Source of the DNA: Candidatus Eremiobacterota bacterium
Lineage (GTDB): Bacteria > Vulcanimicrobiota > CADAWZ01 > Ess09-12
Direction of reading: 5' to 3'
Assembly: GCA_031082125.1 (NCBI GenBank)
Contig: JAVHLM010000024.1
Location: 25,801 to 89,800 of the forward strand
Length of the DNA: 64,000 nt
In this document: piece by piece, positions 894 to 4,942 of the stretch
Layout of the letters: every line of letters begins with the position of its first letter
Numbering within the stretch: the stretch's first letter is position 1
The notes under the pieces: generated by a model
The model's database searches: none
Told to the model about the DNA's origin: nothing
The model's input: the letters and a program-made list of their open reading frames with translations, nothing else
Program-made: the position numbers and the translations under genes

Positions 894-3851
894 ATGGCAA
901 AACACAGAGGGCTTATTTTCCTTGCCATACTGCTTGTGGTGTCTTTTGTGATATTCAATAAAATATCCAATGCCGATGGGAGAAATAACCCTTACCGCCG
1001 GCCATCTCCCAGCCCCACAGCTCACCCAACCATTAACCCGACAGCGAGCCCTGGGAGCAATCCATCCGGAAGACCAGTGGTCACTCCTTCGACAAATCCC
1101 TTCAGAAGGCCGACTCCCGGCCCGACGAGTAGTCCCTTAGAAACTCCCTCCAGAAGGCCAACTCCCGGCCCGACGAGTTCTCCTTCCGGCCGCCCTCCGG
1201 TGATACACGAGCTCCCAGAAAGTGTAAAGCTCGAGGTCAAAGTCCCGTCAGCATCAACAGAAAAGTGGGCAGACATGATTACCATAACCTCCCCGGAGAC
1301 TCTTACCTTCCGTTATGTGCCTCATAACATCGCCACGGCGGAAAGCCGCTGGGAGATTTCCTCCAAGCCTTTCGGCAGTGGAGGTCCCCTCATGGACTCA
1401 CAATGGCTTAAGAATCCCGCATCAGGACAGATGGCATGGTTTCAGATTAAAATGTCTCCGTACCTTCCAGGGAAGCCACAGAAGACTGCCACTTTTTATG
1501 CAAGAATAGTTCCTGCCGTAACTAAAGAGGGTGGAGGATATGAAGAGAAACCAGGAATCTCAAATACTGTGACGATTACCTATACTGCACCAGGCGACAC
1601 CACTCAGAAGCTGGATGTTCCCGATGAGCCTTTTTATTACACGAGCAAGCACAAATGGAGAACCGACTTTAACGGGGACAAAAAGGACGATATTATTGCC
1701 TTTGATCGCGAAAAGGGCATTGTGTTTGTGGCTCTTTCTTCAGGCACAAGCTTTCTTAAAAAAGGCGATACATGGCATGAAGGATTCTGCAGAACCGTGA
1801 ATATAGGTGCCTTGTCAGACACAAACGGAGATGGAAAAGTAGATGCAGTGCAGCCTGCCCGCTCTATGAAGATCCCTTCCATGGGAGACTTCAATGGCGA
1901 CAGGAAGGTTGATATTGTAAGCTTTTCCCGTTATGCCGCCCACGGAGATGAAAAGGCAGGGCAGGCAATGGCCGCCCTCTCCAAGGGAGATTCTTTCGGG
2001 CCAAAAGGAGTGTGGCGTGAAGAGTTCTGCACAGGAAACAAGATCCCGGCAGTGGGTGATTTTAATGGTGACGGCATGGATGATGTCGCTTATTTTGTCC
2101 GCAGCAGTCTGACGGGAGACGAGCAAGGCAATGTATATGTAGCGCTCTCTCACGGTACCGGTTTCTCCGAGCCCAAAAAATGGCATGATAGCTTCTGTCT
2201 GGACAAGGAAGTTCCTCTTGTAGGTGATTTTGACGGTGACGGTAAAGATGATGTCGCCTCCTTTGTCCTGGATACCAAGCATGGGGATCCTGCCTGCGGC
2301 AATGTATATGTGGCGCTCTCTACGGGAAAAAGCTTCTCGGGAACAAAGGAGAAATGGCGTGGATTATTCTGTGTTGAAAAATACGAAATTCCTCTTGTGG
2401 GTGATTTCAACGGTGACGGCAAGGATGATATCGCCTGCGTCAAGAGAGGATCACCGGGCGGTAAGGTAGAGGTGGCCATTTCCAACGGAAAGACGGGAAA
2501 AAGCTTCCAGGCCCCTAAAAAGTGGTGCGATTATACATGTGCCTATCAGGAAATACCTGTGGCAGGCGATTTTGACGGAGATAAGATTGATGACATAGCC
2601 ATATTCAGCCACGACGCAAGAGAAAAGGAAAAACGAGGCGATGTGAATGTCATGGTATCCACAGGGGTGGAATTCAAGAAACTGCAGAAGTGGCATGACT
2701 TTTTCTGTATCGGCTCTGAAGTTCCGGACACATTTGCCGCCTTGTATCCATCTCTTGTCTATCTGAAAAACGGAGAGCTCTGCCTCAAGAATCTCTCTTG
2801 CCTTATCACTGAATCCTCGGGTAATGACAAGAGTAAATTATGCATATTTGCAGACGGCAAACTGGTTACCTCGCTCAAGAAAGAAATGGGCAAGAAAAGC
2901 AGCTGGCCTCTTGACCTTAAAGTTCCTTTTTACCAGAATGTAAAGATTGTATTGTGGGATCTTGACGCTCCCGACGCAGACGATCTCCTTGGAACAATTT
3001 ATGTGACCTTGCAGGACACACCGGGAGATACTATTGATAAAACATTCCGCCATGATGATGCGAATTACACCCTTACTTACTCTCTGATGTGCCTGGGCGA
3101 AGACAGGCGCACAATGAATGCCATGGATGCGCTTGAAAACTTCAAGCAATCAAAGGCCCCGGGAAAGTTCACAAAAATTGCCAAAGATGCTCTTATTCAC
3201 GAAATCAGGGCTCGAATTGAGAACCCGACCCTCATGAGGCAGAGCGACCAGTCATTATGCGGTCCCATGGCAATACTTGTTGCTCTTGCCATGAAAGATC
3301 CGGAGCGCTATGTTAGCATGTGCCGCACTATGTTTGAGAAGGGAGAATTTAAAAGCTACAGCGAGGTGATTAAGCCCGGTGCTCATATAACTTCAGCAAA
3401 AGTGCCCGATACAATGGCTCAGGTTGACTGGATGCTGGCCGCAAGCATGAGAGACTATGAAAATGACGTATTTGATTATGAAGAGGACGATGCTACTGTA
3501 GCAATCACTTTCCCCGGGGAAATGAGGATGTGGATGAAATCAATCATCGGATGCACAAACGCCGTCTATACCTCAACATACCTTTACGGTGAAAAATCGG
3601 CGCTCGCAGAGGGCCACTTTGCCGTTGATGCAGGAAATCCCGTGGCTCTTCTGATCGACTCAAAGATACTTCCGGGAGAAGGACCTTGCAAAGTGAATCA
3701 TTTTGATCACTGGGTGCTCCTTCTCGGTGCGGAACCTATTGGAAGCAAGCTTAAGTTCTGGATTTTCACCTGGGGAGAAGTCAGGTATGTCACTCTGAGT
3801 ACTGACACCTTTGAGGATCTTTTCTGGGGAGCGGTATTCGGTTACTATTAA
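894..3851 (+). CDS. FG-GAP/VCBS repeat protein with C2-like and papain-like peptidase domains
   Basis: The protein has 985 residues, with AAGGAG upstream of the ATG. An N-terminal hydrophobic segment (residues 7-21) acts as a signal or anchor. A Pro/Thr/Ser-rich linker (about 30-105) holds repeated RRPTPGPTSSP units. A beta-rich domain follows, then about seven FG-GAP/VCBS repeats with calcium-loop motifs such as DFNGDGKDDI (about 255-610). Around 620-720 a segment with WDLDAPDADDLLG resembles a C2 domain. The last 200 residues look like a papain-fold (C39-like) peptidase: Gln783 and Cys789 in a Q-x5-CGP motif, and His939 in DHW. The Gln-to-Cys spacing of six matches papain. The likely role is an extracellular adhesin with a protease head. 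Repeat and signal calls are firm; activity is inferred. Confidence 0.85.
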   Translation: MAKHRGLIFLAILLVVSFVIFNKISNADGRNNPYRRPSPSPTAHPTINPTASPGSNPSGRPVVTPSTNPFRRPTPGPTSSPLETPSRRPTPGPTSSPSGRPPVIHELPESVKLEVKVPSASTEKWADMITITSPETLTFRYVPHNIATAESRWEISSKPFGSGGPLMDSQWLKNPASGQMAWFQIKMSPYLPGKPQKTATFYARIVPAVTKEGGGYEEKPGISNTVTITYTAPGDTTQKLDVPDEPFYYTSKHKWRTDFNGDKKDDIIAFDREKGIVFVALSSGTSFLKKGDTWHEGFCRTVNIGALSDTNGDGKVDAVQPARSMKIPSMGDFNGDRKVDIVSFSRYAAHGDEKAGQAMAALSKGDSFGPKGVWREEFCTGNKIPAVGDFNGDGMDDVAYFVRSSLTGDEQGNVYVALSHGTGFSEPKKWHDSFCLDKEVPLVGDFDGDGKDDVASFVLDTKHGDPACGNVYVALSTGKSFSGTKEKWRGLFCVEKYEIPLVGDFNGDGKDDIACVKRGSPGGKVEVAISNGKTGKSFQAPKKWCDYTCAYQEIPVAGDFDGDKIDDIAIFSHDAREKEKRGDVNVMVSTGVEFKKLQKWHDFFCIGSEVPDTFAALYPSLVYLKNGELCLKNLSCLITESSGNDKSKLCIFADGKLVTSLKKEMGKKSSWPLDLKVPFYQNVKIVLWDLDAPDADDLLGTIYVTLQDTPGDTIDKTFRHDDANYTLTYSLMCLGEDRRTMNAMDALENFKQSKAPGKFTKIAKDALIHEIRARIENPTLMRQSDQSLCGPMAILVALAMKDPERYVSMCRTMFEKGEFKSYSEVIKPGAHITSAKVPDTMAQVDWMLAASMRDYENDVFDYEEDDATVAITFPGEMRMWMKSIIGCTNAVYTSTYLYGEKSALAEGHFAVDAGNPVALLIDSKILPGEGPCKVNHFDHWVLLLGAEPIGSKLKFWIFTWGEVRYVTLSTDTFEDLFWGAVFGYY

Positions 3852-3913: not shown

Positions 3914-4050
3914 GCAGATGCCGGGGAACAGGCGACAAGAGCATCGTGCTCTACCATTGAGCTACCCCTCCACGCAGAGGGGACAGGACTTGAACCTGCA
4001 ACCACGTCGTCCAAAGCGAAGTATCTCTTATCTACACCACCGGCATCTGC
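3914..4050 (-). ncRNA. Circularly permuted tRNA-like RNA
   Basis: Numbering the RNA from 4050 downwards, nt 1-11 and 127-137 are perfect inverted repeats. Nt 30-46 form an anticodon arm (CTTCG/CGACG, one mismatch) with loop CTTTGGA, which would give anticodon UUG (Gln). Nt 47-51 are a variable loop. Nt 52-68 are a canonical T arm with loop TTCAAGT. Nt 69-75 (CCCCTCT) are an acceptor 3' strand. After GCGT, nt 80-86 (GGAGGGG) pair with that strand over 7 bp including one G-U. Then come TA and a canonical D arm (GCTC, AATGGTA, GAGC). All tRNA parts are present, but the 3' half precedes the 5' half, with the break near position 26/27. Two further helices (nt 13-16/117-120 and 20-26/110-116) extend the break. 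No CCA is encoded. It is not tmRNA: it has a true D stem and no tag frame. Confidence 0.6.
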
Positions 4051-4057
4051 TTCACTT

Positions 4058-4066
4058 ATTATAGCA
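4058..4066 (-). promoter_or_regulatory. Extended -10 promoter of the tRNA-like RNA
   Basis: On the minus strand the sequence reads TGCTATAAT, a perfect extended -10. Its last base is 7 nt before the first base of the inverted repeat that opens the RNA. That is the right distance for transcription to start at about 4050. No good -35 is present, as is usual for extended -10 promoters. Confidence 0.7.
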
Positions 4067-4126: not shown

Positions 4127-4891
4127 TCAATGGGGCACTTTCGCCACCGCGATGAGGTCCTTTGAAGTCTCTCTCTCAAAGGGGGCGAAGGAAAAATCGC
4201 CGTACCAGGAGACGCCGGCAAAGCCGTTTTCCATCAGGAGGGGCTCCAGCTCCTCCCTGCTCCAAGGGCGAAGAACCGTGGACTCGGCATGGCGCTCCCA
4301 TTGTGACCCGCGCTTTGCAAAAATCAGCACGTCCAGGACCACAAGGCTTCCGCAGAACTCGAAGATCTTCTGGAAGAGCAGCTCTCTTTCACCATCCCTC
4401 ACCACCCTGAGGGGCATGAAGCGGCCTTCCCTCACTGTCAGTGTATGAAAGTTCACGATCTGGAAAAGCAGGGTCCCTCCAGGAGCGAGGATCGCCGCTG
4501 CCCCCCGGAAAATCCCTGTGAGGGCCTCCGCCTCTTTGAACTGCGCGAGGGAATTGCCCAGGATGGTGAGAAAATCAAAGGAATCCTCCCCGAAGGAGCC
4601 TTCAAGGGAGAGAAGGTTTTCACGCACGAACTTGAGCTCCGACCCCTGCGAAGCGGCATGCTTCTTCGCCACGGTCAGAGCGGCCTCTGAGAGGTCTGTT
4701 GCCGTGACAGCGTGGCCGAAGGAATGGAAAAGCAGGGCATGGCGGCCCGTGCCGCAGGCGGCATCAAGTATCCTTTTCCCTGGCAGGCCGAAGACCTTCC
4801 GGTAAAAGGGTTCCTCTCGGGAGAGCCTTGATTCCCATGGGACCATAAGATCATAGAGATGGGCCATGGCGTCAAAAGGATTTTTCTCCAT
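4127..4891 (-). CDS. Class I SAM-dependent methyltransferase
   Basis: The product has 254 residues. The SAM-binding motif I (ILDAACGTGRHA, residues 41-52) and a following acidic ATDLSEA strand mark a Rossmann-fold methyltransferase. The substrate is not evident. An ATG six codons upstream lies inside the ribosome site itself (AAGGAG), so the ATG at 4891, 8 nt after that site, is the start. It follows the CHAT gene by about 50 nt on the same strand and is probably the last gene of that operon. Confidence 0.85.
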   Translation of the reverse strand: MEKNPFDAMAHLYDLMVPWESRLSREEPFYRKVFGLPGKRILDAACGTGRHALLFHSFGHAVTATDLSEAALTVAKKHAASQGSELKFVRENLLSLEGSFGEDSFDFLTILGNSLAQFKEAEALTGIFRGAAAILAPGGTLLFQIVNFHTLTVREGRFMPLRVVRDGERELLFQKIFEFCGSLVVLDVLIFAKRGSQWERHAESTVLRPWSREELEPLLMENGFAGVSWYGDFSFAPFERETSKDLIAVAKVPH

Positions 4892-4942
4892 GTCTGTCAC
4901 TCCTTTCACAGGGTAAGTGGAGCCGCTCTTGAAGGGCCTCCT

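Follow-up and report, generated by a model that had tools for sequence, protein, structure and literature searches.

A stand-alone gene that very probably encodes a bacterial Y RNA with a circularly permuted tRNA mimic at its tip

The window (the whole stretch of DNA that was analysed, 64,000 nucleotides from a Candidatus Eremiobacterota bacterium) contains a small-RNA gene of 137 nt on the minus strand, which occupies the gap between a gene encoding an FG-GAP repeat protein (894-3851, plus strand) and a methyltransferase gene (4127-4909, minus strand). Its features are collected in Table 1. Read from 5' to 3', the RNA runs GCAGATGCCGG-T-GG-TGTA-GATAAGAG-ATACTTCG-(75-nt tip)-CTCTTGTC-GCCTGTT-CC-CCGGCATCTGC, and its folding energy beats that of 200 of 200 shuffled sequences (z -3.2). 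Hexamers resembling TATAAT precede most other Y RNA genes of the host genome at a similar distance; in the promoter scan of the window copy the -10 hexamer was good, and no full promoter consensus, no clear -35 element and no clear terminator were found. The neighboring FG-GAP repeat protein has 985 amino acids and carries in its C-terminal part the stretch QSDQSLCGPMA, which, judged by eye only, is suggestive of a C39/papain-like cysteine protease.

Table 1. Positions in the window of the predicted Y RNA, its probable promoter element and its structural parts.
Feature	Position	Strand	Basis
Whole predicted Y RNA, 137 nt, basal stem end to end	3914..4050	-	sequence; stem model R1; same stem elsewhere in genome
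Probable -10 element TATAAT, 7 nt upstream of stem	4058..4063	-	sequence; similar hexamers at other Y genes
Basal helix, 5' strand (11 bp, bulged U, then 2 bp)	4037..4050	-	folding; covariation
Basal helix, 3' strand	3914..3926	-	folding; covariation
Second helix, 5' strand GATAAGAG	4025..4032	-	covariation in 149 relatives
Second helix, 3' strand CTCTTGTC	3934..3941	-	covariation in 149 relatives
Asymmetric internal loop (3' side GCCTGTT, 5' side TGTA)	3927..3933 (3' side); 4033-4036 (5' side)	-	TGTT largely conserved in relatives
Conserved Y motif ATACTTCG	4017..4024	-	found in Y RNAs whether or not the head is a tRNA
tRNA-like tip, 75 nt, permuted, apparently opened between 31 and 32	3942..4016	-	ARAGORN after rotation; YrlA match 3945-4006
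Anticodon-loop residues 32-38, CTTTGGA (UUG triplet), apparently opened on 5' side	4010..4016	-	17-nt spacing to T stem
Opened anticodon stem, 3' strand CGACG (39-43)	4005..4009	-	comparative pairing
T arm GCAGG-TTCAAGT-CCTGT	3983..3999	-	YrlA match; ARAGORN after rotation
Acceptor 3' strand CCCCTCT	3976..3982	-	folding; ARAGORN after rotation
GCGT loop closing acceptor stem	3972..3975	-	sequence; folding
Acceptor 5' strand GGAGGGG	3965..3971	-	folding; ARAGORN after rotation
D arm GCTC-AATGGTA-GAGC	3948..3962	-	folding; ARAGORN after rotation
Opened anticodon stem, 5' strand CGATG (27-31)	3942..3946	-	comparative pairing

The tip, which reads 5' to 3' CTTTGGA-CGACG-TGGTT-(T arm)-CCCCTCT-GCGT-GGAGGGG-TA-(D arm)-A-CGATG, contains a full tRNA in permuted order. 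When it is cut in the acceptor loop and its ends are joined, the rotated sequence (GGAGGGG TA GCTC AATGGTA GAGC A CGATG CTTTGGA CGACG TGGTT GCAGG TTCAAGT CCTGT CCCCTCT G CGT) is called by ARAGORN as a 73-base tRNA-Gln(ttg) whose anticodon stem contains an A-A mismatch. The Rfam covariance model YrlA (Y RNA-like A) matches the tip with E 1.1e-7 in 401 bases and 4.9e-7 over the whole genome; this match is confined to the tip and reaches 40.5 bits against a gathering score of 69 for RF02553, and the stem sequence of the window copy is unlike the Rfam YrlA stem. At standard thresholds ARAGORN found no tRNA and Rfam no family in the window, YrlA being named only at a relaxed threshold, and the best single-sequence fold of the RNA lacks the T arm. 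Much of what had been read from the letters of the window is nevertheless upheld. The order T arm, acceptor 3' strand, acceptor 5' strand and D arm is confirmed by the minus-strand sequence, the YrlA match and ARAGORN; the acceptor strands, only 4 nt apart, pair over 7 bp across the GCGT loop; the ends of the RNA pair by 11 perfect bp with further helices above, as seen in sequence and folding; the D and T arms are canonical in sequence; and G73 and a weak 1-72 pair fit tRNA-Gln, which agrees with the ARAGORN call. The possibility that the tip is a recent copy of the genome's own tRNA-Gln was ruled out by the lack of a close match, as out of about 72 positions the tip matches the two tRNA-Gln genes at 49 and 51 and a tRNA-Thr at 56.

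Where the tRNA chain is opened was the point on which the original prediction had to be revised, since it had placed the break near 26/27. Of the two strands concerned, CGATG (27-31) lies after the D arm and CGACG (39-43) before the T arm, and in relatives they form on average 3.37 of 5 bp, compared with 2.36 for shuffled partners (maximum of 1000 shuffles 2.79). The pair 28-42 shows a C-G/G-C exchange across relatives and is formed in 92% of 38 distinct cases, as against 68% for the equivalent pair of the arm proposed originally. The opened anticodon helix weakens away from the D arm (55% for 29-41 and 29% for 31-39), therefore probably only two or three of its base pairs are real. The distance from the anticodon-loop part to the T stem is 17 nt in the window, and relatives peak at 17-18 nt. 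Spacing and comparative pairing thus indicate an opening within the anticodon loop, between 31 and 32. The UUG anticodon had been read from a best fold with a CTTCG/CGACG arm; the UUG triplet does lie within loop residues 32-38, but that arm is missing from the unconstrained best fold. If the tRNA arms are forced, single-sequence energies favor the CTTCG/CGACG arm by 3 kcal/mol over the opened-loop helix. CTTCG is the end of the motif TACTTC[G/A], which occurs at the base of heads of all kinds, including Y RNAs without a tRNA tip. For the opening position the comparison was trusted over the single-sequence energy, which does not settle it.

The stem places the RNA in a large family. GTDB genomes were scanned once with the 5' motif, which yielded 83 stretches, mostly from Acidobacteriaceae, with some from Hyphomonadaceae, other Alphaproteobacteria, Desulfobacterales and others. 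A stem covariance model, R1, was trained on four sequences, one of which was the window copy. Applied to 80 loci, it matched 262 times at E<=1, almost always below 0.01 and often in arrays, and the stem is common to about 250 RNAs, many of which lack any tRNA tip. In an alignment of 149 stems, which was fitted to the model and so leans towards structure, 96.6% of the cells are paired compared with 73.3% after shuffling, and the covariation score is 0.621 compared with 0.174 when shuffled and at most 0.13 when slid, so that the contrast with the controls is still large. Compensatory changes were found at 14 of 15 stem pairs of this alignment. The acceptor strands of relatives, placed by sequence anchors alone, pair at 6.13 of 7 positions compared with 3.82 for shuffled partners. 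A gene encoding Ro60 (TROVE) lies on the same strand, usually just downstream, in 52 of the 69 loci with parsed Y RNAs, and in 0 of 11 control loci with a motif match and no parsed Y RNA. In 18 loci full of Ro60-linked relatives (L137, L168, L160, L140, L175, L149, L202 and others) YrlA gave no match at the gathering score, which shows that the Rfam model does not cover this clade; the sub-threshold score of the window copy reflects the reach of the model and not a biological trait by which Y RNAs are defined. Arrays of Y RNAs with the same stem were also observed on viral contigs (L209-L220; 26 matches in the 12 contigs searched), and an unannotated stretch of Ruegeria phage RpAliso (OR257569.1, 3392-3459) resembles the permuted tip of the window.

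Ro60 genes were searched for in the host genome because Y RNAs are partners of Ro60. Two Ro60/TROVE genes were found, one on contig C29 and the other on C11, and none of the five genomes of the order lacks such a gene; genomes of the same genus or family were absent from the relatives searched. R1 has six matches in the host genome: besides the window copy these are a single gene preceding Ro60 on C29, a tandem pair preceding Ro60 on C11, and stand-alone copies on C1 and C3. Three of the six Y genes thus lie directly upstream of the two Ro60/TROVE genes, and the window copy adjoins none. The copy directly upstream of the C29 TROVE gene is a stem with a short loop, GCCGGTGGTGAAGGAGCGGGATACTTCG...CCTGCTCCGCCTGTTCCCCGGC. 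The heads of the five other Y genes (among them L121:1501-1604, L123:1501-1629, L119:1501-1688 and L124:1501-1562) comprise short loops, a T arm with a GNRA hairpin and a long unassigned head; the C1 copy has a canonical T arm, and among the six only the window copy has the full permuted tRNA. In genome G002 of the same order, three tandem small-RNA genes have the same ends, without a tRNA tip, and each has its own promoter-like sequence and T run. The host genome further encodes PNPase, known as a partner in Deinococcus, an RtcB ligase that is not near the Y genes, and 46 ordinary tRNA genes, including tRNA-Gln with TTG (C23) and CTG (C22) anticodons.

Across the family, the heads carried by the stem are diverse. 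A canonical T arm is present in 124 of 215 parsed heads (shuffled mean 1.0), and ARAGORN finds a tRNA after rotation in 57 of the 157 heads of at least 60 nt, compared with 0, in any rotation, when these are shuffled. By sequence-based sorting, 78 heads have the order T arm, acceptor, D arm, as in the window. Among 69 anticodon-loop-opened heads, 27 show a loop-like signature (shuffled mean 2.0); the triplet varies so widely that almost any occurs, and the anticodon stems are poorly paired. About a dozen heads (15 are listed, some of them loosely defined) are instead opened in the D loop and contain a whole anticodon arm; their anticodon loops have mostly 4-6 nt, which is an argument against decoding. 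In the arrays of Acidobacteriaceae the D-loop-opened head usually follows the anticodon-loop-opened head and lies nearest Ro60, and both permutations stand side by side in L140, L142, L150, L159, L160, L162, L176, L187, L188 and L198, which are mostly from Acidobacteriaceae. In L146 (4821-4949) a Y stem bears an unpermuted tRNA head joined via its acceptor ends, which ARAGORN calls as tRNA-Ile(tat) with no rotation needed. The Rfam tRNA model scores above threshold inside two Y RNA arrays (L166:6760-6902 and L175:1589-1659), therefore automatic annotation may list heads of Y RNAs as tRNA genes. It is conceivable, if rather doubtful, that the Y stem is a display scaffold on which the tRNA fold, whether unpermuted or opened in either the anticodon loop or the D loop, would serve different Ro60 partners or act as a decoy for tRNA-cutting enzymes.

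Bacterial Y RNAs are modular RNAs of 90-150 nt, in which a paired-end stem is joined to a tRNA-like domain resembling the D, T and acceptor arms; Rsr is bound at the stem and PNPase at the tip, and the RNA is modified by DusA and TruB (PMC8394870). The Y RNA structure 6CU1 superposes on tRNA with a circular permutation, and bacterial Y RNAs are known permuted tRNA mimics (PMC11472068). The window RNA resembles YrlA (RF02553; Salmonella YrlA, PDB 6CU1) in its length, in its paired-end stem with an asymmetric internal loop, in a tip where T arm, short acceptor hairpin and D arm follow in circularly permuted order, and in the presence of Ro60 genes in the genome together with the family-wide Ro60 linkage. 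It differs in that its stem sequence and TACTTCG motif depart from the Rfam consensus, that strand 39-43 and the 3' portion of the anticodon loop, both absent from that consensus, are retained in its tip, and that it scores below the gathering threshold and does not lie beside a Ro60 gene. Chen et al. reportedly described in 2014 likely Y RNAs near Ro60 from over 250 species of bacteria and phages, each of which had one or more that were tRNA-like. Our literature search found no paper combining Ro60, Y RNA and Acidobacteria. Algae and archaea have permuted tRNA genes in which, as here, the 3' portion of the tRNA is encoded ahead of the 5' portion; it is established for these genes that the flanks are removed and a working tRNA results (PMC3978253), whereas the ends of the window RNA are held by the conserved Y stem and the genome has tRNA-Gln genes of its own. 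With two-piece (permuted) tmRNA the window RNA shares an acceptor stem whose 3' strand comes first and is separated from the 5' strand by a short loop, but its 137 nt are too few to accommodate a tag reading frame or tmRNA pseudoknots, and its D stem is a normal one of 4 bp. A tmRNA was ruled out, as there is no tmRNA match around the locus.

The original prediction had read the locus as a permuted tRNA gene, of which none was known to it from bacteria. The permuted tRNA fold on which this reading was built is present, and the claim of novelty fails with the permuted tRNA mimics already known as bacterial Y RNAs (PMC11472068; PMC8394870). The transcript of a real permuted tRNA gene would be cut within its acceptor loop, by RNase P and by 3' trimming, and would receive CCA, and the resulting two-piece (or ligated) tRNA-Gln(UUG) would decode CAA. 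The complete 73-nt tRNA-Gln(ttg) obtained on rotation, whose anticodon loop has 7 nt and which carries G73 and a weak 1-72 pair, agrees with this reading, as does the presence of RtcB, and the missing CCA at the tip says little because the genome's tRNA-Gln genes are also without an encoded CCA. The frame around the fold is, however, the Ro60-linked Y stem, which is used with many other heads; the ordinary tRNA-Gln genes with TTG and CTG exist, so the locus is not the main source of this isoacceptor; and neither the almost arbitrary triplets and poorly paired anticodon stems of relatives nor the short anticodon loops of most D-loop-opened relatives suit a decoding RNA. On the tRNA complement and the other heads of the family a decoding permuted tRNA gene was rejected, and we consider a working two-piece tRNA highly improbable. 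Processing by RNase P with CCA addition would be possible in principle, although nothing here supports it.

A tip that acts mainly as a decoy for tRNA-binding or tRNA-cutting enzymes, e.g., anticodon nucleases, and not as a tether for PNPase, is a less remote alternative that we still regard as unlikely. It would account for the retention of half an anticodon loop with many different triplets, a decoy role has been suggested for the tRNA-like domain of YrlA in Salmonella (PMC7790460), and RtcB is encoded in the genome. On the other hand, a loop-specific nuclease may not recognize the tip because the anticodon loop is open, the RecA-dependent nuclease leaves Salmonella YrlA uncut (PMC7790460), and the RtcB gene lies away from the Y genes. 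Hardly any weight is given to a functionless tRNA fossil, in which the 3' half of one tRNA gene has come to lie beside the 5' half of the next. Tandem tRNA genes do place a T arm before a D arm and do yield weak YrlA-like matches, but such a relic does not explain why both acceptor strands pair over 7 bp, in the window and, far above shuffled partners, in relatives, or why the flanks are the conserved Y stem; it was rejected on the acceptor pairing together with the flanking stem.

Taken together, the locus very probably encodes, as a stand-alone gene, a bacterial Y RNA of the YrlA kind whose tip is a tRNA mimic; the permuted tRNA fold is present, but as the effector module of a Y RNA. The long stem formed from both RNA ends, with its basal helix and bulged U, asymmetric internal loop, 8-bp helix and TACTTCG motif, is where Ro60/Rsr, in one or both of its copies, would be expected to bind. 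The tip would present a complete tRNA fold, and its order is circularly permuted because this fold is opened in the anticodon loop and closed at the acceptor end. By analogy with Deinococcus and Salmonella, the stem would tether Ro60, and the tRNA-like tip would recruit or gate a partner such as the exonuclease PNPase and would carry tRNA-type modification. For the window RNA, we infer transcription, Ro60 binding, the partner and the function.

The striking claim of a first permuted tRNA gene in a bacterium therefore gives way to a secure Y RNA assignment, and as tRNA mimicry in bacterial Y RNAs was already known, the window gene is a new and well-supported example and not the first permuted bacterial tRNA gene. 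A large clade of Y RNAs, common in Acidobacteriaceae and some Alphaproteobacteria, escapes the Rfam YrlA model; an updated model would add it. The heads suggest that the tRNA fold is joined to the stem by at least two openings, which may help to define which face of the mimic matters. In the host, one genome holds six Y RNAs and two Ro60 proteins, with a full tRNA mimic on only one of the Y RNAs.
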